From the IMG/VR virus record IMGVR_UViG_3300030329_000108, positions 1 through 21,575 of that record: a stretch of DNA of 21,575 nt; one strand, 5' to 3'. The DNA comes from a virus. The translations under genes and the position numbers were made by a program. Below, in pieces: positions 3,969 to 15,000 of this stretch (within the stretch, counting starts at the first letter, position 1; each line of letters starts with the position of its first letter). The notes below the pieces were generated by a model. The model saw only the letters and a program-made list of their open reading frames with translations. It was not told the DNA's origin and made no database searches.

Positions 3969-4144
3969 TGGCAAATACATCTTTTAAACAGTTTTGTAGA
4001 AGGATGTGGTTAGATTATTGTGATGAAAACAATACTAGACAGAGTAAGCATTTAGAAGAAAAAGAATACACACAACTCTATTGGTTGTGGTTACTAGATA
4101 AATATGAAGAATTGAAGGAGCAAGAAAATGAGTCTGCTAAGTAA
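3968..4144 (+). CDS. 58-residue Trp/Tyr-rich protein overlapping nrdB start, unknown
   Basis: This short frame begins at ATG 3968 (sharing a base with the previous TAA) and ends at 4144, 17 nt inside nrdB. The protein is MANTSFKQFCRRMWLDYC followed by a charged, aromatic helix (TQLYWLWLLDKYEELKEQE). Two cysteines, Cys10 and Cys18, and several Trp/Tyr residues make it look like a compact folded domain rather than random translation. The nrdB Shine-Dalgarno (AAGGAG) lies within its 3' end, so the two genes are probably coupled. The family is unrecognised; small genes with similar MWLDYCDE-type sequences are, to my recollection, recurrent in marine phages. Confidence 0.65.
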   Translation: MANTSFKQFCRRMWLDYCDENNTRQSKHLEEKEYTQLYWLWLLDKYEELKEQENESAK

Positions 4145-5096
4145 TAGAGATTACTATAAACCTTTTGATCATCCTTGGATGTTTGATAAGTATGTAGAAC
4201 AAAACCAAATGCATTGGCTTCCTGAATCAGTACCACTACACACAGATGTAAAGGACTGGCAGGAACTTAGTAATGAAGAAAAGAATTTATTAACACAGAT
4301 ATTTAGATTGTTTACTCAATCAGATGTAGATGTGGGTTCAGGTTATATAGATAAGTATATGAGAATATTCAAGAAACCTGAAGCTAGAATGATGATGACA
4401 GCCTTTGCCAATATGGAATCCATACATCAACACGCATATAGTTTATTATTAGATACAGTAGGTATGCCTGAGATAGAATATAAAGCCTTTGCTGAGTATG
4501 AGGAGATGTCTAATAAACATGATTACGTAAATAGTTTTAAACCTACATTAAAAAATAAGAAAGCAATAGCTAAAACTTTAGCAGTCTATTCAGCTTTTAC
4601 AGAAGGACTACAATTATTTAGTAGCTTTGCAATCTTATTAAACTTTCCTAGATTTGGAAAGATGAAAGGTATGGGCCAGATTGTTACATACTCTATACGT
4701 GATGAGTCACTTCACGTTGAAGCTATGACACAACTGTTTAGAGAATTTATAAAAGAGAACTTGGATATATGGACAGATAAATTCAAGAAGGAACTCTATG
4801 ATATATGTAGAGAAATGGTTGAGTTAGAGGATAAGTTCCTCGACCTCGTATTTGAAATGGGAGATATGCAAGGGCTTACAAAGAAAGATATGTATGCATA
4901 CAATCGTTATATAGCTGATAGAAGATTGTTACAGTTAGGATTAAAAACTAACTTTGATCAACGAGAGAATCCTTTACCTTGGTTAGATGAAGTACTTGGT
5001 GTTGAACATCAGAACTTCTTTGAAGGTAGAGCAACTGCGTATATGAAAGCAGGACTTAGAGGTAAACAAGAAAAGATTAGCTTTACGGAGATATAA
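4128..5096 (+). CDS. nrdB: Class I ribonucleoside-diphosphate reductase, small (beta) subunit
   Basis: This 322-residue ferritin-fold subunit holds the metal-radical cofactor for NrdA. The carboxylate/histidine ligand set is complete: Asp66, Glu97 and His100 (ESIHQHAYS), Glu159 (FTEGLQLF), and Glu193 with His196 (RDESLHVEA). The radical tyrosine is present at Tyr104, seven residues after Glu97 as in E. coli NrdB (Glu115/Tyr122). This argues for a tyrosyl-radical enzyme, not a Tyr-less class Ic type. An AAGGAG Shine-Dalgarno sits 8 nt before ATG 4128. The pairing with a cone-less NrdA is consistent with a phage enzyme freed from host feedback. Length and motifs show no truncation. Confidence 0.97.
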   Translation: MSLLSNRDYYKPFDHPWMFDKYVEQNQMHWLPESVPLHTDVKDWQELSNEEKNLLTQIFRLFTQSDVDVGSGYIDKYMRIFKKPEARMMMTAFANMESIHQHAYSLLLDTVGMPEIEYKAFAEYEEMSNKHDYVNSFKPTLKNKKAIAKTLAVYSAFTEGLQLFSSFAILLNFPRFGKMKGMGQIVTYSIRDESLHVEAMTQLFREFIKENLDIWTDKFKKELYDICREMVELEDKFLDLVFEMGDMQGLTKKDMYAYNRYIADRRLLQLGLKTNFDQRENPLPWLDEVLGVEHQNFFEGRATAYMKAGLRGKQEKISFTEI

Positions 5097-5098
5097 AT

Positions 5099-5323
5099 AT
5101 GAAAGCAAAGGAAGCGAACATATTATCGTTTCGTGTCTTATTTGATACTAAAGGTAATTTAGTAACAGAAGTTGGAGGGCTTCCGTTAGAAGATGCAAAT
5201 AAAGTTTTTAAAGGTAGAGATTTAAAAATAATACAAACTGTAATTAGAGAAGGTAGACAAAGAATCCATAATATTCATAATGAATTAGAAACAGAATTAG
5301 ATGCTTTGAACTCTGCTATTTAA
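5099..5323 (+). CDS. 74-residue protein at end of left arm, unknown
   Basis: This protein starts two bases after the nrdB stop with a GGAG Shine-Dalgarno inside the nrdB end. The N-terminal half looks like a small beta unit (ILSFRVLFDTKGNLVTEVGG), and the C-terminal half is a long amphipathic helix (REGRQRIHNIHNELETEL). I recognise no family. It is the last gene of the rightward arm. Its final 8 nt overlap the 3' end of the opposite-strand cyclase gene, so the two transcripts meet tail to tail without a spacer. It is probably cotranscribed with nrdAB. Confidence 0.6.
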   Translation: MKAKEANILSFRVLFDTKGNLVTEVGGLPLEDANKVFKGRDLKIIQTVIREGRQRIHNIHNELETELDALNSAI

Positions 5324-7058
5324 TAGTATAGATTTCTAGAGGTTTAGACTTACCTTTAACTTTAATAGGTTTAAGTTCTTTAAACTTATTATTACAGTTA
5401 GACATAGTAGCTTTAGTTATAAGTAAGTCTGCTCCTGCTTCTTTACAAGCTGACTCAGTTCTAGCTCCTACATTTACAGCATCACCTATAGCTGTATAGT
5501 CAAACCTATCATCACTTCCCATATTCCCAATGATAGCATCGCCAGTATTAATCCCTATACCTATATTAACTCCTAAGTTTATATTCTTTATGTTCTGTTG
5601 AATCTCTATCGCACAATCTACAGCCTTCTGTTCGTGATTAGGTAGGTCCATAGGAGCATTAAAGATAGCCATCATTGCATCTCCTATATACTTATCTACC
5701 ATACCACCATGTTTCTTAACAGCATCAGCTTGTATAGTAAGAGCTACATTCATTATCTCAGTAACTTCTTCTGGCTCTAACTTCTCCGACATAGCTGTAA
5801 ATCCTCTTACGTCTGTAAATAAATAAGTACAACGCTTTCTTTCTCCACCTAACTTTAAAAGGTCTGGATTGTCTTGTAGTTTTTTAACCTGTCTTGGATC
5901 AAGGTAATGTTCAAATTGTTTCTTAATCTGCTGTCTCAACTTAAATTGAATTCTAAAATTTAAATAGAAGGCTGTTGCAGCTGTAACAAATTGTGATAAT
6001 AATGTCCACGTTACATCTATTAAAATTCCACGTCTAATTAAGTACATTCCTAAAATCCCTGTAGCAATCCAAATAGTACCACTAACTAAAAGTCCTAAAG
6101 TTATACCTAAATTATTTAAGAATATCCAAATACAAACAATAGATAAAGTAAATATAAACAACTCTAAAGCTTTACTGTAATCAGGTATATAAGGGCTGTC
6201 TTGTACTAAAATTGATTCAGCTAAAGCAGCTTGAATTTTATGAGGTTCAAGCAATCCAACTGGAGTACTAAGTTGTGGCATTACTCCATTAGCAGTTACT
6301 CCAACTATAACAAATTTATTCTCAACATCCATCTCTTCTAATGTAGTTTGAGGAGTATTAATCCAACTAATCCACTTTCTTCCTAATGAATCAACAGGTA
6401 CTGGAGGCAATCCTTTTACTCTTATTTCTTCTATACCATTAGGATTAGTTTTAATTACATACGTATCTGCATTAGCCATAACCTTTAATATCTGTGTGCC
6501 TACAGATGCTACCCATCCATCAGGAGTACGCATTAGTAAAGGAAGTCTTCTAACTAATCCATCGACATCTATAGGAGCAGAAGCTATACCTTGTGTTGCA
6601 CTTTGTTTAAGAATATCTATATTCTCTACAACACCTTTAGCTGTGTAACCTCCTATGTTATCACCTAATATAACTGTACCTACAGTAGGAGGATAGTTAC
6701 CATTGTCATGTTCAAACATAGAAAGAACACTAGGATGTAGTCTTAGAACCCTTGCGAAGTCTTGATCACCTCCTTGTCTATCAGGCTCTGAGAAAGAGAT
6801 AACATATCCTACCCCTAGTGCTCCAGAATTTAATATATCTAAATGTATTTCTGCCAGTCTTTGTCTTGGTAAGGGATACCCACCTTCTCTTTTTACGTCA
6901 TCTTCTGTAATATTTAATATAACAAAATGATTAGAAGGTTCTGGAGTCTTAACAAACTTGTCAAATGTTTTTAACTTCATCATCTCTAAAGGTGTGAAGT
7001 TTGATACGAAAGGTATTCCTAATATTAATAATAAACCTAGTAGTTGTAATTTCTTCAT
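5316..7058 (-). CDS. CHASE2-domain membrane adenylate cyclase (class III)
   Basis: The 580-residue protein is a complete bacterial-type sensor cyclase. An N-terminal membrane/signal anchor (about 5-20) is followed by an extracytoplasmic CHASE2 domain (about 35-290), three membrane segments (about 296-316, 318-341, 347-367), a linker, and a class III catalytic domain (about 405-580). Catalytic residues are intact: metal Asp416 (FTDVRGFT) and Asp460, substrate Lys456 (DKYIGDA) with Thr522 (YTAIG), and transition-state Asn529 and Arg533 (VNVGAR). The Lys/Thr pair is the bacterial adenylate form, so the product should be cAMP made in the host cytoplasm. Its ATG shares a base with the FecR gene stop (TAATG), so they are made together; CHASE2 cyclases and FecR-domain genes are also often neighbours in bacteria. 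A phage carrying an apparently functional one is unusual. Confidence 0.93.
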   Translation of the reverse strand: MKKLQLLGLLLILGIPFVSNFTPLEMMKLKTFDKFVKTPEPSNHFVILNITEDDVKREGGYPLPRQRLAEIHLDILNSGALGVGYVISFSEPDRQGGDQDFARVLRLHPSVLSMFEHDNGNYPPTVGTVILGDNIGGYTAKGVVENIDILKQSATQGIASAPIDVDGLVRRLPLLMRTPDGWVASVGTQILKVMANADTYVIKTNPNGIEEIRVKGLPPVPVDSLGRKWISWINTPQTTLEEMDVENKFVIVGVTANGVMPQLSTPVGLLEPHKIQAALAESILVQDSPYIPDYSKALELFIFTLSIVCIWIFLNNLGITLGLLVSGTIWIATGILGMYLIRRGILIDVTWTLLSQFVTAATAFYLNFRIQFKLRQQIKKQFEHYLDPRQVKKLQDNPDLLKLGGERKRCTYLFTDVRGFTAMSEKLEPEEVTEIMNVALTIQADAVKKHGGMVDKYIGDAMMAIFNAPMDLPNHEQKAVDCAIEIQQNIKNINLGVNIGIGINTGDAIIGNMGSDDRFDYTAIGDAVNVGARTESACKEAGADLLITKATMSNCNNKFKELKPIKVKGKSKPLEIYTIK

Positions 7059-8179
7059 TAGCCTGATCCTTGTGTAATTGTAATTGTTGAAGAGCTACCA
7101 CCATTAACTGTAATAGTTTTAGTAACTCCATCCTGTATAAATATAACTGTATAACTTCCAGAACCATCTAAGTCTAAACGTACTGATTCACTTACGCTTC
7201 TTCTTAAACTAATAGTTTGTCCTTGTATTAAGGTAGTTATCTGAGTCTCCATGTCCTGACCGATTGATGTACCTTGTACACTAATACCTGACGCATCTCT
7301 AGCCAACTCATCTTCAGCTTCAATCATATCTAATTCTGAAACTATATCTAATAAATCTTCCAAGAAGTTTACATCTAAATAGTTTATATCTAATTCTGAG
7401 AATTCTAATTCAGCCTCTGCATCTAAGAAATCTTCATTTAAATAATCTATATCTAAATCATTGAAGTCTAAAAATACATTAGATGATTGAGCTGTACCTT
7501 CTTCTTGTATAACCTGTTCCTTTTTTGGAGGAGTTACAATAAGCATATTATCTATAATGTCTAGAGTTAAATCTAATATTACAGGTTTACTTGGAGAGCT
7601 TTCAAAGACTGTTACAGTTGTAGCTTGATAAGGTTTGTTGAGCACAACAGTACTCATAGCAGTAGAGACTGTAATCTCTCCACTAGCTAAACCATTTTCA
7701 TCAGGTAATAAAATTATTAAAGACCTGCCGAGTTCATCTACAGTACAAGTGAAATCTGTACCACGTATTGCGATGCTGGCAGTTGGGGTTTGTATTGATA
7801 TGTTCTCTTTGTTAATTCTACCGAGACCACCAGTTATAAATCTAGCAGTACCACTAGCAAACGTAAGAGCCATTTTAGATTTGCTTGGATTAGGATCATA
7901 GATATATTCATCTATGACAAGTTTAGAATGTTCAGTAAGTCTGACCTTACTGTTGTCCAGAAAGGTTATAGCGAGTCTTCCAGCAGAGGTGCGAACATCA
8001 TCAAGATGTTGAACATCAAAATCAAGTTCAGCACCATAAGCCTTATCTCGTAGAACTTGTGCAGTTCCGTTTAGTTCTGTTATGTCTCCAATGTTAGCAT
8101 CCGACTGCTGTGCCATCATCGTCTTGGATGACACAAATAGTACCATTGCTACCAGTAGAAAGTATCTTGAGCCAATCAC
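7058..8179 (-). CDS. Secreted FecR-domain protein with acidic 21-residue repeats
   Basis: The 373-residue protein begins at GTG 8179 with a signal peptide (MIGSRYFLLVAMVLFVSS, cleavage near AQQ at 23-25). A FecR domain covers about 30-145, with LDDVRTSAGRLAITFLD, EYIYDP and TPTASIAIRGTDF visible. Residues 237-278 are two 21-residue acidic, Leu-rich repeats, followed by a partial third. A beta-rich, Ser/Thr/Gly tail ends the protein. It lacks the anti-sigma N-terminal domain and inner-membrane helix of true FecR regulators, so it is more likely a periplasmic or surface ligand-binding partner, plausibly of the CHASE2 cyclase it is coupled to. No Shine-Dalgarno is visible at the GTG. The first 86 nt overlap the curlin gene; an ATG at 8146 is possible but would cut into the signal peptide. 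Confidence 0.85.
   Translation of the reverse strand: MIGSRYFLLVAMVLFVSSKTMMAQQSDANIGDITELNGTAQVLRDKAYGAELDFDVQHLDDVRTSAGRLAITFLDNSKVRLTEHSKLVIDEYIYDPNPSKSKMALTFASGTARFITGGLGRINKENISIQTPTASIAIRGTDFTCTVDELGRSLIILLPDENGLASGEITVSTAMSTVVLNKPYQATTVTVFESSPSKPVILDLTLDIIDNMLIVTPPKKEQVIQEEGTAQSSNVFLDFNDLDIDYLNEDFLDAEAELEFSELDINYLDVNFLEDLLDIVSELDMIEAEDELARDASGISVQGTSIGQDMETQITTLIQGQTISLRRSVSESVRLDLDGSGSYTVIFIQDGVTKTITVNGGSSSTITITQGSG
7346..7471 (-). repeat. Two tandem 21-residue (63 bp) acidic repeats in the FecR-domain gene
   Basis: The FecR-domain protein contains LDFNDLDIDYLNEDFL... directly followed by LEFSELDINYLDVNFL..., which align over 21 residues with conserved L, F, LDI, YL and FL positions. 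A partial third copy (SELDM) follows. The DNA copies have diverged (related taattctga / atatctaaat segments), so the duplication is old or under protein-level constraint. Confidence 0.8.
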
Positions 8180-8804
8180 GTGCTAATAAACTCTGTTGTT
8201 GTATATTAAATGTTCTGTCGTTACCTGTATGATCTAGATAGAAATACCCATTAGCATAACCATCAGCATCAAACGTAACAGTATTAGAATCACCATCTAC
8301 GTCAACGTAGTTAGTCGCTGAATCATAATCTATATCAAAATCAAATTCGTTACTGTCACCTTGAATTATCCAGTCTAAGTCTAGCGTACTTGCCATTGCA
8401 GATGTACCTACATTAAGTGTAAAATCATTACTACTTCCAGTTACATCTACATTAAAGTTACCACTATCAGCACCATATGTATCAGTAGGATCAACTTGAA
8501 TATTAAATACGTTAGAGTCTCCATCAAATTCAAAGAAGCCTGTAAACGTATTAGCTAATATATCACCTAAGAATTTGTTAGAACTTCCTATTTGATTAAT
8601 ATCTAATGTCATAGTATTTCCATCCAAATCTAAGGCAGTTAAATCACCTGCAGTAGAGTCCGTTCCTCCTATTATGTTGCCTGAACCTAGCTGTTCTAAA
8701 TCAAGATTAGCAGTAGCACCAGATTGATCTACATATATTTCATTATCTGCAGCGTAAACTGATCCAACTAACAATACTAAACATAATGTTAAAAATTTAT
8801 TCAT
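8094..8804 (-). CDS. Curlin-repeat secreted protein (CsgA/CsgB-like)
   Basis: From ATG 8804 the protein is 236 residues with a clear signal peptide (MNKFLTLCLVLLVGSVYA). The mature part has repeated curlin-type units: VDQSGATANLDLEQLGSGN, LDINQIGSSNKFLG, VTGSSNDFTLNV, IQGDSNEFDFDI, VDGDSNTVTF and LDHTGNDRTFNIQQQ. The recurring G-x-(S)N and Q/D-x-G spacing matches curlin repeats, which form amyloid beta-helices. It is Asp-rich with fewer Gln than E. coli CsgA. The tail ends with Cys...Cys (TICVIQ...AVGC). It lies directly after csgG, overlapping by 8 nt (ATGAATAA), so it is the probable export substrate. A TTG at 8825 would extend the frame, but it adds residues before a perfect signal peptide. 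Confidence 0.8.
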   Translation of the reverse strand: MNKFLTLCLVLLVGSVYAADNEIYVDQSGATANLDLEQLGSGNIIGGTDSTAGDLTALDLDGNTMTLDINQIGSSNKFLGDILANTFTGFFEFDGDSNVFNIQVDPTDTYGADSGNFNVDVTGSSNDFTLNVGTSAMASTLDLDWIIQGDSNEFDFDIDYDSATNYVDVDGDSNTVTFDADGYANGYFYLDHTGNDRTFNIQQQSLLARDWLKILSTGSNGTICVIQDDDGTAVGC

Positions 8805-9597
8805 AAGTCCAATAGTTCCTCCCAAAACCTATTTGAATCATTTTTAAAACAGCTTCTTCTATTGCCTTTTGCAAAGCTATAGAAGCACTTTCGTTTTCTG
8901 CGACACCTCCCTCGATTTCAACAAGCTCTGTGCCCATCTCGATGAAACGAAAAACATCTTGCGAGACTCCAACAGATAGAAGTGTCTTAGCAGTTGTTAC
9001 TTCTATTAACACTTCACCTGTTGATACAGATATTAAACGTAGTGAGACTGTGACAGTATCTTCTCTGTATTGTTTGCTACTGCCTATACCTAAGTATCTT
9101 GCTCCTAGTCCACCACTTCTAAGGTTAGTATCATATGCTGTGACACCACCTTGGACCAATAGCCCTGCAAACAGTAAGGGCTTTAGGTCTTTGTTCTCTT
9201 CAAATTTCTCTCTAGTACTTCTTATTAATTGTCTTTCTTTCGTAAGATTATCTAAACCAATACGTTCTACTACTTGAAAGAACTCACCATTTCCTGCGTG
9301 CTTCAAAGCTCTTATTAAGAAAGCATCAGGTGCTTGTGATATTGCAGTACTAAACAATGCAAACTGACTGTTACTTTTTCTCTGTCCTGTTAAGTCTGAA
9401 AAACCATTAGGATATACAGCTATAGTAGGCCTTCTTATTGGAGGCTCAATGTTCTTTAATTCTTCTGACTGTAGTTCTAATATCTGAGTAGTTTGAATAC
9501 TAATAACAGGTATACCACCTCTTGTTAGTAACTCATCATATTTTACTGCACAGCTAGAAAGTGAAATCGCCAATAGGCAAAGTAATAGTCGTGACAT
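8797..9597 (-). CDS. csgG: CsgG-like curli secretion pore lipoprotein
   Basis: The product is a CsgG-family outer-membrane lipoprotein that assembles into the pore for curli subunits. Starting at ATG 9597 it reads MSRLLLCLLAISLSSC, a classic lipoprotein signal with the lipobox cysteine at 16. ATGs at 9603 and 9609 are also in frame with no better Shine-Dalgarno. Family features include RRPTIAVYPNGFSDLTGQR, a central ERIGLDNLTKERQLIRSTR, a glycine-rich transmembrane-loop region (FAGLLVQGGVTAYDTN, GGLGARYLG), and TVSLRLISVSTGEVL. At 266 residues it matches CsgG length. It overlaps csgF upstream by about 44 nt and the curlin gene downstream by 8 nt, giving the order csgF-csgG-curlin on one transcript. 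Confidence 0.92.
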   Translation of the reverse strand: MSRLLLCLLAISLSSCAVKYDELLTRGGIPVISIQTTQILELQSEELKNIEPPIRRPTIAVYPNGFSDLTGQRKSNSQFALFSTAISQAPDAFLIRALKHAGNGEFFQVVERIGLDNLTKERQLIRSTREKFEENKDLKPLLFAGLLVQGGVTAYDTNLRSGGLGARYLGIGSSKQYREDTVTVSLRLISVSTGEVLIEVTTAKTLLSVGVSQDVFRFIEMGTELVEIEGGVAENESASIALQKAIEEAVLKMIQIGFGRNYWTYE

Positions 9598-10015
9598 TCC
9601 CATCTTCATCTGTAATCTTTAGAGTTATCATACCATCGACAACCCAATACTCAATTATATTTCCTAATAATTCTAATATACCTTCTGTCTTAGGATTTTC
9701 ACCAAACAAGTTCTCTACTAATTGTCTAGATAACTGAGCATAGATACGAGATTCAAGATTCCTAATGAACCTTGCAAGTGTTGTATTATTTTCCTCTCTT
9801 TCTGCAGCTTCTTTAAGGGCTTTGATCTCTGCCTTTAATGCTTCCTTACGATTGAACTCTTGGTTCTCTATAGTAAGGTAATGTGAACTGGTGTTGTTAC
9901 CACTAAAGGAAGGATTCTTAAACTTATGTACTATCTCATCTGCGTTTATATTAAGTGCAAAAATACTTAGTACCATGACTAAGCTTATTATCCATATCCA
10001 TTTAGTACTATCCAT
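9554..10015 (-). CDS. csgF: CsgF-like curli assembly factor
   Basis: CsgF binds the CsgG pore at the cell surface and helps nucleate curli. This 153-residue protein has a signal peptide (about 1-25, WIISLVMVLSIFALNINA) and then the family hallmark HKFKNPSFSGN, equivalent to the FRNPNFGGN segment that plugs CsgG. A long charged helix follows (RKEALKAEIKALKEAAERE), and a C-terminal beta unit (WVVDGMITLKITDEDGN). Length is close to the usual 138. Its ATG shares a base with the previous stop (TAATG) and has GGAAAG upstream. The long helix is more charged than in enterobacterial CsgF. No csgE or csgC is visible in this window. Confidence 0.87.
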   Translation of the reverse strand: MDSTKWIWIISLVMVLSIFALNINADEIVHKFKNPSFSGNNTSSHYLTIENQEFNRKEALKAEIKALKEAAEREENNTTLARFIRNLESRIYAQLSRQLVENLFGENPKTEGILELLGNIIEYWVVDGMITLKITDEDGNVTTITLPIGDFTF

Positions 10016-10365
10016 TAATCTTTCCTCTGGTCATCTCTGTCTGCTTTTGCTACTTTATCTATCTCTATTAGATTTGGTACACCTAATAAAGTTTTTAAAA
10101 GTATGTCCTGCCTGATTGTTTGATTATCAACTGCTCTAATCCTATCTATTAAAGCAACAATCATCCCATGTTGTGCGTCTAACTTAGAAGTTATTCTTTC
10201 TTCCATAGCATCTTGTTTAGCATTTATTGAAGCATCAGTTGCATCTATCTTCTGTTCAATAGTTCCCATTATCTTTGACAGCAATTGCCAAAGTAACCAC
10301 CCTAGTCCTAAAAGTCCTGCTACTGGAACACCAACCTCATTGATTAATGTTATCACACTATCCAT
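10015..10365 (-). CDS. Single-pass membrane protein with coiled coil, unknown
   Basis: The 116-residue protein has one membrane segment (about 11-33, VGVPVAGLLGLGWLLWQLL) near the N-terminus with no cleavable signal. A long helical, heptad-rich domain follows (about 35-105: EQKIDATDASINAKQDAMEE, RIRAVDNQTIRQ). This layout resembles XhlA/BhlA-type holin accessories and YvrJ-like small phage proteins, but I cannot assign it. It sits directly before csgF with a one-base overlap and starts inside the end of the 65-residue gene, so it is part of the curli unit's transcript. It could act as a membrane scaffold for the curli pore or in lysis; the sequence does not decide. Confidence 0.7.
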   Translation of the reverse strand: MDSVITLINEVGVPVAGLLGLGWLLWQLLSKIMGTIEQKIDATDASINAKQDAMEERITSKLDAQHGMIVALIDRIRAVDNQTIRQDILLKTLLGVPNLIEIDKVAKADRDDQRKD

Positions 10366-10555
10366 TAAACTTTAAGTCCTCCCACCTTTTAAAGGATTTA
10401 GTATCAGAATCCCAAAACCAACCTTCGTAATGACTGGATTTTTTAGGTTCTTCTTCCTTTTGATCTTGATACCAGTTCCAACGACCATTATGAATGCTTT
10501 CCATATTAGTAATAATATCTTTAATTGTTTTCTCTTTACCTTTTTTTGGGTGCAT
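10358..10555 (-). CDS. 65-residue Trp-rich soluble protein, unknown
   Basis: This small protein has a Lys-rich start (MHPKKGKEKTIKDIITNMES) and a Trp/Tyr/acidic body (HNGRWNWYQDQKEEEPK, HYEGWFWDSDTKSFKRWEDL). Repeated W-x-W and WFWD features suggest a compact aromatic fold or a peptide-binding patch. There is no signal or membrane segment. I recognise no family. It ends with an 8-nt overlap onto the next gene (ATGGATAG), typical of this operon. An AGGA lies only 3 nt before the ATG, which is close for a Shine-Dalgarno; an internal ATG at codon 18 is an alternative start. Confidence 0.6.
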   Translation of the reverse strand: MHPKKGKEKTIKDIITNMESIHNGRWNWYQDQKEEEPKKSSHYEGWFWDSDTKSFKRWEDLKFNG

Positions 10556-10587
10556 TAATCCTACACTTCTCTATCGTGATTTCAAAA

Positions 10588-10737
10588 TTATGTAAAGTCT
10601 GCAATTATATCAATTATAAGGTAAACAAAAAGAATGTGCATAATGAGCCTATGCCTACGAGTACGGCTAAGTCCGTATCTCTTCTCCTCTTTATCTTCCT
10701 CAATCTCCTCTTGCGTATTGTACCATCGTCCAGCCAT
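10588..10737 (-). CDS. 49-residue small membrane protein, unknown
   Basis: Reading leftward from ATG 10737 gives MAGRWYNTQEEIEEDKEEKR, a middle RTRRHR stretch, and a C-terminal hydrophobic segment (LIMHILFVYLIIDIIADFT). This suggests an acidic soluble head anchored in the membrane by its C-terminus, with positive residues before the segment. No Shine-Dalgarno is obvious. A second frame on the same strand (10754 to 10614, 46 residues, MKSVPLWLDDGTIRKRR...) also ends in a hydrophobic stretch and starts right at the hsp20 stop (TAGATG). By A/T-rich third positions and less extreme composition I prefer the 49-residue frame. Whether one or both are made is open. Confidence 0.5.
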   Translation of the reverse strand: MAGRWYNTQEEIEEDKEEKRYGLSRTRRHRLIMHILFVYLIIDIIADFT

Positions 10738-10754
10738 AAGGGAACTGATTTCAT

Positions 10755-11183
10755 CTAAGTTTCAATCTTAATTTGTTTAGGCTTCTTCTCTTCTGGAATA
10801 AACCTAGTTAAGTTAATACGTAGAAGACCATTCCTCAAGGTTGCACCAACGACTTCAATGTCATCAGCCAACTTAAATTGTCGTCTGAAAGAGCGTTGGG
10901 CAATTCCCTTAAAGAGTTTGCCTTCCTCCTTTGTTTCAGACGATTCGTGCATTATTGTTAAAGTTCTTTCCTGTACTTCAACTTCTATGTCGTTATCGTC
11001 TAGCCCTGCGAGAGCCATTTCGATAGTGTAGTTCTCTCCATCTCTACTTACGTTTGTAGGTGGATATGTCGGTACTGATATTTCAGTAGCCTTAGATAAA
11101 CTGTCAAACAATCTATCAAATCCAACGAACATAGATGTAAATGAGGGTGAATAAAAGTCCACCAAGTTATTCTTAATAACCAT
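10755..11183 (-). CDS. hsp20: Small heat-shock protein, Hsp20/IbpA family
   Basis: The 142-residue protein is an ATP-independent chaperone that holds unfolding proteins. Its alpha-crystallin domain spans about 40-132, with PPTNVSRDGENYTIEMALAG at the start, RSFRRQFKLADDIEV in the middle and the signature NGLLRINL near the end. The C-terminal tail carries an I-x-I motif (IKI) used for oligomer assembly. N-terminal FDRLFDSL matches IbpA-type proteins. Marine T4-like phages also carry hsp20, often as a virion-assembly helper. The ATG has a strong AAGGAG, but the leader can fold over it (see the hairpin at 11181-11214). Here it heads the run of genes leading into the curli and cyclase genes. Confidence 0.95.
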   Translation of the reverse strand: MVIKNNLVDFYSPSFTSMFVGFDRLFDSLSKATEISVPTYPPTNVSRDGENYTIEMALAGLDDNDIEVEVQERTLTIMHESSETKEEGKLFKGIAQRSFRRQFKLADDIEVVGATLRNGLLRINLTRFIPEEKKPKQIKIET

Positions 11184-11214
11184 AATTTTTCTCCTTATTA
11201 TTAAGCAAGTTATG
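11181..11214 (-). promoter_or_regulatory. Candidate ROSE-like RNA thermometer hairpin over hsp20 Shine-Dalgarno and start
   Basis: In the hsp20 mRNA, CAUAA (11214-11210) can pair with UUAUG (11185-11181, containing the AUG). Inside it, UUGCU (11208-11204) can pair with AGGAG of the Shine-Dalgarno (11195-11191) as U-G, U-A, G-G, C-G, U-A around an 8-nt loop UAAUAAUA. UUGCU opposite the Shine-Dalgarno with a G-G mismatch is the hallmark of ROSE thermometers in alphaproteobacterial small heat-shock genes. This pairing is read directly; temperature response is inference. The outer stem is AU-rich and separated by a 1x5 internal loop, so it should be weak. Confidence 0.5.
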
Positions 11215-11219
11215 TATAC

Positions 11220-11250
11220 CTCTTAGACGCTCATAGAGCCATTCTAAGAG
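11220..11250 (-). other. Hairpin in hsp20 leader
   Basis: CTCTTAGA and TCTAAGAG form a perfect 8-bp inverted repeat, with an inner GCTC/GAGC that can add a 4-bp stem-loop (loop TAT). It lies just 5' of the thermometer-like hairpin on the hsp20 transcript. ROSE leaders typically have such preceding stem-loops. It has no following T run, so it is not a terminator. Confidence 0.6.
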
Positions 11251-11256
11251 AGTTTT

Positions 11257-11292
11257 TAATTACTAGATATATCGAACTCTATCTAGTAATTA
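11257..11292. repeat. 13-bp perfect inverted repeat between the 37-residue gene and hsp20
   Basis: TAATTACTAGATA (11257-11269) and TATCTAGTAATTA (11280-11292) are perfect reverse complements with a 10-nt spacer. The element can be a transcript hairpin in the hsp20 leader or a DNA operator for a dimeric regulator. On the minus strand it is followed by AAAAA rather than a T run, so it is not an intrinsic terminator for the virion genes. Confidence 0.7.
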
Positions 11293-11296
11293 TCGA

Positions 11297-11325
11297 GTCT
11301 TAAATAGACTCTATTTAGACTTTTT
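11297..11325 (+). terminator. Weak candidate intrinsic terminator facing rightward
   Basis: On the + strand GTCTTAAATA and TATTTAGAC can pair (one bulged T, 5-nt loop GACTC), immediately followed by TTTTT. Stem GC content is low. All genes here run leftward, so it could only stop antisense read-through from the left arm; a function is doubtful. An alternative fold uses GAGTCT/AGACTC (11295-11311). Confidence 0.3.
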
Positions 11326-11424
11326 AATTAAGCCTAAAATCTTCTCAAACCACTCTGGTTTTTTTCTGTAGATAACATATCCTACGATACCAGCAATGAT
11401 TATAAATCCTATTAAATTTTCCAT
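11311..11424 (-). CDS. 37-residue small membrane peptide next to holin
   Basis: From ATG 11424 the peptide reads MENLIGFIIIAGIVGYVIYR then KKPEWFEKILGLIKKSK. It has one N-terminal membrane helix and a basic amphipathic tail, typical of small phage holin- or antiholin-like peptides. The Shine-Dalgarno AGGAG is at ideal distance and lies in the last codons of the holin gene upstream; the gap is two bases. This placement supports a lysis role by association. It is the last gene before the hsp20 leader. The family cannot be named from so short a sequence. Confidence 0.65.
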   Translation of the reverse strand: MENLIGFIIIAGIVGYVIYRKKPEWFEKILGLIKKSK

Positions 11425-11426
11425 TA

Positions 11427-11903
11427 TTACTCCTGTTTATGTGAAGCTCCAAAATAGAAGCTGATTACAGCCGAGGCTAATCCACCTAGATAACCAAGCA
11501 CTAAGTTTATTAGAGCTTCGCTGTTCTGTTCTGGTGGTTGTAGAGTAACTAAAAAGATATACCCTAAAAAACCACCTAATGTAGCTACGCCCATAATACG
11601 TGCTGTCCAGTCTTTACTGAATCTTCCTCTAGCATCTTGCGTGTCAGCTACTTCTAATTTAAATACGTCTACTTCAAGCTCTTTCATCTTTAACTCAAAG
11701 TCTTGTTCAGCTTTTTTCAGCTGTAACATCTGTTCAGGTGTAGCATTCTGTACAGCTTTCTCAATAGCCTTTGGTGTATTAGGAACTCCCAATACATCTG
11801 CTATCATATTAGCTGCCATTCCTCCCATAGGCCCACCTAATGCAGAGCCTAATGTAGGAGCTACTGCACCTACGACATTCTTTAATATTCCACCTAGTTT
11901 CAT
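11427..11903 (-). CDS. Holin, 3TM gene-transfer-release type
   Basis: This 158-residue protein looks like the GTA_holin_3TM family, which permeabilises the inner membrane for lysis and particle release. Visible are a glycine-rich N-terminal segment (PTLGSALGGPMGGMAANMIA), a helical charged centre (QNATPEQMLQLKKAEQDFEL, DTQDARGRFSKDW), and two C-terminal membrane spans (about 105-122 MGVATLGGFLGYIFLVTL and 130-152 ALINLVLGYLGGLASAVISF). Its ATG overlaps the preceding small gene's stop (ATGA) and has AAGGAAG upstream. Position just after the ejection proteins and just before a small membrane peptide fits a lysis module. No separate endolysin gene is in this window; the muralytic domain is on the 1420-residue protein. 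Confidence 0.82.
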   Translation of the reverse strand: MKLGGILKNVVGAVAPTLGSALGGPMGGMAANMIADVLGVPNTPKAIEKAVQNATPEQMLQLKKAEQDFELKMKELEVDVFKLEVADTQDARGRFSKDWTARIMGVATLGGFLGYIFLVTLQPPEQNSEALINLVLGYLGGLASAVISFYFGASHKQE

Positions 11904-12049
11904 TCTTCTTCCTTATAAACTTCTTTCATTAAATCTTCAAACATCAATCTGAAATCTTCTAATTTTATAAAAGCTGTATTATGCTTAATTTGGTTTAAGC
12001 AGTATTGTCTGTAACACCTTTCTAATAGTTCTTCTGTGTACAATACCAT
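11900..12049 (-). CDS. 49-residue helical protein, unknown
   Basis: The frame from ATG 12049 encodes MVLYTEELLERCYRQYCLNQ, then a helical acidic end (KLEDFRLMFEDLMKEVYKEEE). It fills the space between the 1420-residue gene and the holin, and its TGA overlaps the holin ATG by four bases, so it is likely coupled to holin translation. The two cysteines (12 and 17) and conserved-looking aromatic spacing suggest a real short folded protein. There is no membrane segment. Similar short proteins near lysis genes are, to my recollection, seen in pelagiphage-like genomes; function unknown. Confidence 0.65.
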   Translation of the reverse strand: MVLYTEELLERCYRQYCLNQIKHNTAFIKLEDFRLMFEDLMKEVYKEEE

Positions 12050-12063
12050 TATAGTGCCTGTTA

Positions 12064-15000
12064 TTAATTTGTCAAGTTTATTCCATTAAATTGACCATAC
12101 CTTCCTGTTTTTTGTCTATAGTTAAAAGCATCTTGAACTGCATAACTAGTTAAAGTATCATCAAGTTTATAGTTATCTCCTTCAAACCCTGTTTTAGCTA
12201 TAACAAAATTTTTCATAATTGTAGGGTCTTCAAAATTTAATTTATCGTTAACTCCTACTCCCATTCTATTAGCAATATAGTTTTTAAAATTAGGATTATT
12301 AGGATTTTCTTCATCCATATGTTCAAATTCTTTTAGATCACCTTTAGCAGGAGATAAAACATCTACCATATCACTAATACTAACAGCCCTTCTACCTCCT
12401 AAAGCGTCTTGGGGTTTAATATATTTTGAGTGGACATTTAAAACTCCTGCCCTTGTACCATCAAATAAAGTTGGAAATTGCTCAAAAGTAGAATCAGTAT
12501 TGTTTTCATCTGATAATTTATTATTCCATTTAGTTTTACTTTTAACAATATTTAATGGGTTTCTGTTTAAAATATTTCTTTTCTTTTCATAATAGTTAGG
12601 GTTTTCTTTTATATCTCTAGTTAAATTATTTTCTATTTCGTCTAAAGCCCTTTTAACTATGTTACCTTCTTTTTTACCTTCACTTCCTCCATCATTATAT
12701 TGCTTACGTACTGCACCACCATTGTAGTACAAAGCAGTATAAGGCTCGCCAGTAAAAGGATTAATTCTTTCTTCTGGTTTTTCTTTAGCATTTGGTACTT
12801 CTACTTCTAACCCTTCTGCGTATTGCCTTCTTTTTCTTTTTCTTTTACCAGAACTTTTAGGCTTATCTTTAATATCATAAATCTCTATAGGTTGTATAGG
12901 GAAATCGCCTGATAATAAATGTTTAATATCTTTTCCAAAAGGTGCAACATCCATTGTGTCTGATAACGCACCTTCAAAGTCTCCTTGATATAAATTTGAG
13001 GTAACATTAGGAACTAATTTTATTAAATCATTTGTTAATGCCAATGAAGGTATTGCTCCTCCTAAACCTTCACTAGAACCCGGACCAGAAATAAGACTAA
13101 GTAGTTTTTCTGCTTGGAAAGGCATTACGTTACCTGATAATTTCATAGCTTCTAACGCATATTTAGCTGACCATCGTTCAGGAACATTAGACTCATCTTT
13201 ATAATACTCAGAAGGACTAAAAGCAATCTGCATTTCTCTTACGCCTCCGTATATACTTATAGCAGCTAACATTCTTAAAGCTAAAGCAGCATCACCATCT
13301 TCAATTCTACTTATTAAAGCATTTGTTTGTGTTGTTTTAGCTTGTGCCCATGATAAGAACTGTCCTAATGATCTGACCAATGGATTATTAGATTGTGCAA
13401 AAAGCAATCTATTACCTACAGTTGGTATAATCGCATCTCTTTCCGAAGAGTTAAATCCTGCTTTATGTAAAAATTGTTTAGTCTCTACATTATCATATGC
13501 TTCTCTTGCATTTTTAAATTTAGATATTTTTAGTAGTTCATCTTTTTTTAATCCTAAAGCATTGATTTCATTTTGTAAACTTCGTGATATTTTTTTACCC
13601 TTACCAACTCGTTTAGCTATATCATAAGCTCTAAATATTCCTGCATCATAAGCTGCTCCTCTTGCAAAATCAGTAATTCTTTTTAACTGTACAACCCTAA
13701 AAAACCAGTCATTATAATCACTTATAAATCTACCTGTTTTATTTGAGGGGTCTACTCCAAATCCTATAGCTTTTAACTCACTTTCTAAAACATTTTGATA
13801 TTTAATACCTAAACCCTCAGCCGAAAATGTATCTTGCTTTCCTCCTAAAAGTTTACCTGCTTTTGCTTTTGCTGCATATGTTTTTATAACAGGCATAAAC
13901 CCACTATTCTGTAAAGGTTGTATTAAGTCTCCAATACTAGGTATAGATACACGAGTTAGCATAGTACTATTAGCTAATGATACCAACCCTGCCATCATTA
14001 CATGACCAGTCTCGTTACTTAATCTATTTCCATACAAACCAAAGTAAGCATTAACACTATCTTTAATATGTTGTATTTCTTTCTGCTCTAACTTTGCTGG
14101 AGTTCTTTTAACTGTTCGTAATGGATAGTATTTCTTTTTTATTTCTTGTTCTATAGTTTTAAGTAGTTCTCCTTTAGGTCCAAAAGTTTTAGCAAACTCA
14201 TAACTAGGTAGTGTCTGTTTAACTAAATGAGCCAATGTTTGACTAGGATCATTTATAATATAATCTTGTAACATTACACGAGCATTTTGATCTGTGATTA
14301 CACGACCTTTTTCAAAGTTTTTTAACAAAGGTATAACAACATTACCTGACTCATCAAATGCAGTTGTGGCTCTTGTTCCTGTTAAACCTAACATTACATC
14401 AGCGACTTTATTATCAAAAGCCTCGCCACCTTCCTCAATAGCTTTTCTTATAGCATCTGTATCTGTTGGGTCTAATTTATATGTTTGAACAGCCCATGCT
14501 TCTTTTAATCTATAGCCGAACAAATCTGAATTTTTAGCAATTTTATCCCAATCCCACATTTGGGTAAGACCATAATTTTCTAAAAGTTTAAAATCTATAC
14601 CTACTTCAGATACAGCCCCTCCTAACTCATCTGTAAAATCTTTAATCTTTTGTGAAGCTTGTTGAATTATTGTCAGTTCTTCAGGATTATATTTCTTTGC
14701 TAGATCATCTAGTGTTGTAAAACCATTTCTAAATTTACCAACATCTTCTAACATTTCTCTAGGTACATCTCTTAAAACATCTTTATGTATAATATTAAAT
14801 AACTTACCTGCATTTGATAGTGCCCTTTGCTCAACGGGCATAGCACCTACAGTTGTTAAAGAAGCTCCCATCTGTTTATACATAAGCTTACTAAACAAAG
14901 ATGATGCTCCTCCCCATGCATTTAAACGTGCAGCATGTGTGCCTGCTGTATTTATTTTAAGCCATGTACGAATAGTTAACCTAGCTTCTTGATCTAGTGT

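Follow-up and report, generated by a model that had tools for sequence, protein, structure and literature searches.

Introduction

The closest described relatives of the locus treated here are the type VIII secretion system (T8SS) modules of pelagiphages, of which the csgF/csgG part was described first (PMC7029224; PMC9004378). Wittmers et al. (2022) reported the order csgF-csgG-csgA/B-FecR-(csgA/B)-adenylate cyclase (AC) in HTVC023P-type podophages and pelagimyophages, with a histidine kinase always preceding csgF and with CsgE, CsgC and CsgD absent, and treated FecR and the cyclase as T8SS partners not described before; the affinity of the module is alphaproteobacterial (PMC9599517). In the database record of phage Melnitz both FecR and the cyclase are annotated at this place, and in that of HTVC008M the cyclase is annotated and the FecR gene unlabelled. 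Among cellular systems, E. coli curli share the CsgG pore and CsgF. A FecR-protein/CHASE2-kinase operon of Burkholderia contaminans (BiofilmReg), in which interruption of the response-regulator gene abolishes biofilm, encodes a secreted protein with a FecR domain and, after it, a transmembrane receptor with CHASE2 (PMC5192318).

Here, we describe a copy of the pelagiphage module in IMG/VR virus record IMGVR_UViG_3300030329_000108, the whole of which (21,575 bases) is referred to as the window. Seven tightly packed leftward genes at 10555-5316 include csgF, csgG, a curlin-like gene, a FecR-domain gene and a gene for a CHASE2-adenylate cyclase. With moderate confidence, this run is read as a copy of the published module whose FecR-CHASE2 sensor would set cyclic AMP (cAMP), carried by a podophage that probably infects SAR11. 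The initial annotation had regarded the coupling of curli genes to FecR and a cyclase as new, a claim that does not survive the earlier report (PMC9599517). The window agrees with that report in the csgF-csgG-curlin-FecR-AC order on one strand and differs in its HTVC103P/115P-like podophage carrier, in having no second curlin gene and in having no kinase domain before csgF. The curli clusters of HTVC008M and Melnitz likewise show the gene order and families of the window, but carry an extra gene with true PF07012 curlin repeats, and their CHASE2 part is just 26% identical.

Gene Content and Layout of the Module

Two arms converge near 5.3 kb of the window. The rightward arm holds a Cas4-type exonuclease gene together with nrdA and nrdB; the leftward arm holds virion genes, the genes for a 158-aa membrane protein and for Hsp20, and the curli-FecR-cyclase run. 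The module lies between nrdB and hsp20. Open reading frames and Pfam matches place all the genes of the initial annotation where it had them (Table 1), and the overlapping junctions that it listed from the 65-aa gene onward are correct as read from the sequence. Briefly, the 65-aa and 116-aa genes overlap by 8 nt (ATGGATAG), the 116-aa gene and csgF by 1 nt (TAATG), csgF and csgG by 44 or 56 nt depending on the choice of in-frame ATG, csgG and the curlin-like gene by 8 nt (ATGAATAA), the curlin-like and FecR genes by 86 nt, and FecR and the cyclase by 1 nt (TAATG). Median ratios of nonsynonymous to synonymous substitution (dN/dS) of 0.11-0.15 place every module gene under purifying selection, with 0.11 for the 116-aa protein and 0.13 for the CHASE2-cyclase. 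An Rfam scan of the window gave no match and a tRNA scan found none.

The 116-aa protein, which matches phrog_18771, has no HisKA, HATPase or other kinase domain in Pfam or NCBIfam. It would correspond to the published "histidine kinase" (PMC9599517), an equation made by matching position and not from the authors' annotation files.

Table 1. Features of the leftward arm of the window, in order of position.
Feature	Coordinates	Strand	Evidence and remarks
CHASE2 sensor + class III adenylate cyclase	5316..7058	-	580 aa; PF05226 5.8e-29, PF00211 (Guanylate_cyc) 1.4e-20
FecR-domain protein	7058..8179	-	373 aa, GTG start, exported; Pfam PF04773 1.1e-11
Curlin-like repeat protein	8094..8804	-	236 aa from ATG 8804; signal peptide; repeated G-x-x-N turns
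CsgG outer-membrane pore lipoprotein	8797..9609	-	Pfam PF03783 7.4e-52; LSSC lipobox
CsgF	9554..10015	-	153 aa, signal peptide; Pfam PF10614 6.3e-20
116-aa protein	10015..10365	-	one N-terminal membrane segment + predicted coiled coil; conserved directly before csgF
65-aa lineage-specific open reading frame	10358..10555	-	8 nt overlap with 116-aa gene; only in near-identical contigs
Hsp20	10755..11183	-	Pfam PF00011 (HSP20) 1.2e-17
158-aa protein (p158)	11427..11903	-	two C-terminal membrane segments
Promoter-like site	12048..12075	-	perfect TTGACA-16-TATAAT, sigma-70-like

Curli Export Genes and the Curlin-Like Protein

CsgG of the window is 52% identical to that of HTVC008M. The protein encoded next, whose open frame extends to a TTG at 8825, is homologous to HTVC008M "CsgB" and carries nine G-x-x-N turns against a shuffle mean of 2.4 (p 0.0002); six such turns are invariant across 28 sequences, and an AlphaFold model is all-beta with a mean pLDDT of 79. 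Pfam returned no Curlin_rpt (PF07012) match in this protein or elsewhere in the window, and the NCBIfam CsgB match is weak and below threshold (0.0034). The weaker label "curlin-like" is used for this reason in place of the initially proposed curlin-repeat protein.

The extra curlin gene of HTVC008M (L002:10459-11784) encodes 441 aa, is annotated as hypothetical and combines five curlin repeats with a PA14 domain. A csgG-like gene also occurs in OR851715.1, a 1,499-base record named Salmonella phage S.Kent, which is probably a piece of bacterial DNA wrongly labelled as phage. In agreement with the absence reported for pelagiphages (PMC9599517), Pfam detected no CsgE, CsgC or CsgD when the nine proteins of 5316-11903 were scanned; the window differs in this from the E. 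coli csg system, whose operons in turn lack FecR and cyclase.

FecR and CHASE2 as a Proposed Sensor Pair

The FecR-domain protein has a hydrophobic N-terminal stretch and, by hydropathy, no membrane segment, PF04773 being its only match above cut-off beside hits to phrog_37870 (8.7e-70) and the NCBIfam Lsa33 surface adhesin (2.5e-5). It does not show the canonical anti-sigma architecture of FecR, a cytoplasmic sigma-binding N-terminus joined to a transmembrane helix, and because that membrane anchor is absent the label "iron-dependent regulator" is unsupported here. In the adjoining receptor, CHASE2 spans residues 17-305 and the cyclase residues 408-579, with membrane segments predicted from hydropathy at 4-22, 307-325 and 323-341. 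The class III cyclase residues (two metal-binding Asp, the purine Lys, and the transition-state Asn and Arg) are complete, in FTDVRGFT, DKYIGD and RFDYTAIGDAVNVGAR. Asp416, Lys456, Asp460 and Arg533 are invariant in 21 phage cyclases and Asn529 is kept in 20 of the 21, Melnitz being the sole exception. Cyclic AMP output as an enzyme activity is likely. In S. meliloti, CyaD1 without its CHASE2 domain produces cAMP constitutively (PMC5498481).

The pairing itself is also found in cells. FecR adjoins CHASE2 in 12 of the 30 top Caulobacterales CHASE2 loci, and no FecR match was obtained in 1.41 Mb of control loci drawn mostly from other taxa. The Burkholderia operon shares with the window the succession of secreted FecR-domain protein and CHASE2 receptor and the association with biofilm, but its output is a histidine kinase with a response regulator, and it has no curli genes.

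Linkage and Order in Viral Contigs

Counted over loci long enough to tell, a FecR-anchored viral search that was independent of CsgG found CsgG upstream in 43/43 loci and the cyclase downstream in 73/73, and in the CsgG-anchored search 64/64 loci had FecR and 49/52 had the cyclase. The module order is the same in HTVC008M, Melnitz and 80+80 viral contigs. The linkage of these genes is far beyond chance, and the csgG-to-CHASE2-cyclase order that the initial annotation offered as its own check is conserved, not scattered, in related phages.

Phage Lineage and Probable Host

The exonuclease (57% identity) and NrdA (59%) of the window have their nearest relative in HTVC115P, and its 1420-aa virion protein matches, among phage records, only HTVC103P, HTVC104P and HTVC115P. 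A 52.7-kb relative (L336-L338) has the module at the site that it takes in the window, along with nrdA-nrdB and an HTVC115P-like primase and polymerase. Gene content and order (exonuclease, nrdA, nrdB, hsp20, virion genes) thus assign the window to an HTVC103P/115P-like podophage lineage, new for this module, with no terminase or capsid gene at hand for formal classification. The majority of the remaining module contigs that were found seem to belong to another podophage type, exemplified by L039, whose tail-region protein matches HTVC027P, HTVC023P and 023Pt_psg01; the HTVC103P and HTVC023P types are handled as separate groups (PMC10504331). To judge from these relatives, the host of the window is probably SAR11. 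Three contigs in SAR11 metagenome-assembled genomes (MAGs), L091, L334 (G263:C1) and L335 (G300:C11), also carry the module and are probably phage DNA binned with its host.

Exchange of the Cyclase Output Domain

In CHASE2 trees the window pairs with L007 (CHASE2-cyclase gene at 4040-5851; support 100/99) and L077 with L081 (99/99), whereas in cyclase trees L007, L014 and L077 group with HTVC008M (100/99) and the window falls with the other type. A cyclase tree constrained to unite the window with L007 was rejected (p 3e-45), as was the reverse grouping for CHASE2 (p 2e-47), both p values being indicative since the groups were picked after the alignment had been seen. Compared in blocks of 30 residues, L077 and L081 share 73-100% identity as far as roughly residue 390 and 7-50% beyond it. 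A third cyclase type (FAFSLIGDPCN) is found, among other contigs, in L034, L047 and L058, and the catalytic Asp/Lys/Asp/Arg set is kept in all three swapped output types. These trees and alignments indicate that phages exchange the cyclase domain while the CHASE2 sensor ahead of it stays conserved, that the HTVC008M type takes part in the exchange, and that the breakpoint lies near residue 390. We know of no report of such an exchange, within a literature search that was not exhaustive.

Operon Copies in Bacterial Chromosomes

Three of 80 bacterial CsgG loci (L085, L087, L089) are chromosomal and carry csgF-csgG-curlin-FecR-CHASE2 cyclase in module order on the same strand, with CsgF checked in two. 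They belong to Hyphomonas TMED17 (a 706-kb contig) and two Caulobacteraceae MAGs, and their flanks are ordinary (acetyl-CoA hydrolase, TonB receptors, FAA hydrolase or acyl-CoA dehydrogenase). This Caulobacterales operon matches the phage module in its five families, order and strand, and differs in being chromosomal and rare. Its CsgG clusters with that of the phage modules (SH-aLRT 99) and separately from every other bacterial CsgG in the sample. Its CHASE2 likewise joins the CHASE2 of phages (100/100), away from the FecR-CHASE2 pairs that stand alone in Caulobacterales. In the CsgG, CHASE2 and FecR trees, cells, myophages and podophages form unresolved lineages of one clade, which gives no direction of transfer.

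The curli-FecR-cyclase coupling is therefore not peculiar to phages, and because the same operon stands in a few bacterial chromosomes the phages need not have assembled it. The chromosomal operons also call for a qualification of the published claim that T8SS operons of bacteria do not include FecR and AC (PMC9599517). Two further candidates were rejected as cellular copies or left as doubtful: a Pelagibacter MAG contig of only 3 kb (L091) and an 11-kb contig of a Planctomycetaceae MAG with lysozyme and phage-like genes (L086), the latter bearing NifU/IscU-like and Fe-S biosynthesis genes between a second curlin gene and the cyclase (L086:8974-9704).

Proposed Function and Its Alternatives

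Late in infection, CsgG and CsgF would form an outer-membrane export pore through which the curlin-like beta-repeat protein would reach the cell surface. In the inner membrane, the CHASE2 receptor may pair with the exported FecR-domain protein to sense the state of the envelope or surface, and this pair would set cAMP production by the cyclase domain. The envelope-directed unit of the initial annotation (export pore, curlin-like protein, exported FecR protein and CHASE2 cyclase) is upheld, with an order conserved in many phages.

Several observations weigh against this reading. No clumping was seen with Melnitz (PMC9004378), and fibres have been shown by no experiment. The window has no second gene with true Curlin_rpt repeats, which leaves the fibre former uncertain, and a Foldseek search of the curlin-like model against the PDB gave no significant match (best E 0.24), only a resemblance to beta-helix proteins. 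The AlphaFold model of the FecR-domain protein was poor (pLDDT 48) and was not used. Whole-module copies in cells are rare, module-like FecR E-values being found in 1/249 at the level of the order, in 2/199 at that of the family and, among 385 at that of the class, in the seed genome alone. The cyclase is dispensable, since three close relatives of the window's group (L010, L011, L013) carry the module without it, FecR being followed directly by nrdB. Finally, the cyclic-nucleotide-binding domain PF00027 is absent from 95 of 99 SAR11-family genomes and present in four, which leaves the cAMP output with no known receiver.

This last point underlies the possibility, held with limited confidence, that the cyclase product acts not via CRP but through another target, as an ATP drain or as exported cAMP, in which case the unit would be no transcriptional signalling programme. 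PF00027 is likewise missing from all 15 module-type or related phage records searched, several of them fragments, and no phage-encoded cAMP receptor was found there. A class III cyclase rises above cut-off in just 2/99 SAR11-family genomes, in both as a module copy on a 23- or 15-kb contig that is possibly phage DNA, and each of the three operon-bearing bacterial genomes encodes 4-7 PF00027 domains. On the other side, the receptor search covered PF00027 and left other types, such as GAF, outside it; the host of the window is deduced from relatives; and Melnitz infects OM43, which lies outside the receptor survey. A tie between phage cAMP and nucleotide-based defence was considered and dropped for want of any evidence. 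Of the "cAMP output inside" initially proposed, enzyme activity thus stands as likely, with no known target for the signal; if cAMP is made, its target must be something not yet recognised.

Less probable, and in our view rather unlikely, is a reuse of the CsgG-CsgF pore without fibres, either to time or help lysis in the manner of a pinholin or secretin or for nutrient uptake, with FecR and the cyclase gating the pore. A lysis role has been proposed for Melnitz (PMC9004378) and an uptake role for pelagimyophages (PMC7029224), and the lack of a PF07012 repeat in the window would fit either. The module also lies near the 158-aa protein, which by our reading is holin-like and whose homologues (71-87% identity, tblastn) adjoin it directly in many other phages; in L039, an HTVC023P-type relative, the homologue (14221-14697) follows the cyclase and is itself followed by a phage lysozyme (14705-15142; PF00959 5.3e-48). 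Such adjacency may, however, be mere late-gene placement, and in the window hsp20 stands between p158 and the module. Moreover, the curlin-like gene is conserved alongside the rest of the module and is under purifying selection, and its six invariant turns suit a curlin-like exported repeat protein. That unrelated genes were merely carried along together and only resemble one programme is highly improbable and, for csgF-csgG-curlin-FecR-cyclase, nearly refuted: the components do come from separate cellular families, and Hsp20 and the 65-aa frame are indeed unrelated, but the linkage counts, the overlapping junctions and an order that recurs in two further phage groups as well as in bacterial chromosomes speak against it.

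Flanking Genes and Promoter-Like Sites

Hsp20, which the initial annotation had counted as part of the unit, is a phage backbone gene adjoining the module and not part of the programme. It lies outside the overlapping run because a gap of 199 nt follows it, and in HTVC115P, which lacks the module, nrdA-nrdB-small genes-hsp20-virion genes occupy the positions that they have in the window. The perfect promoter-like site, of which simulations expect 0.02 per window, precedes the leftward run 11903-5316 at its border with the virion genes. Another site, matching 10/12 positions at 10640-10613 before the 65-aa gene, is within chance.

Implications

The module is abundant in ocean viruses, and FecR-CHASE2, at its core, is a presumed sensor pair that also occurs in cells and is linked there to biofilm. 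What the window and its relatives add to the published picture is a new phage lineage, the exchange of the output domain, copies in cells, a missing receiver and a gene before csgF that has no kinase domain. As a tentative proposal, one we consider doubtful for the present, pelagiphages may put a transferable envelope-sensing circuit into a host without cAMP signalling of its own, in which the FecR-CHASE2 sensor would stay fixed and the cyclase output, catalytically complete and directed at a target other than CRP, would be replaced repeatedly by recombination at the junction, including with HTVC008M-like domains.

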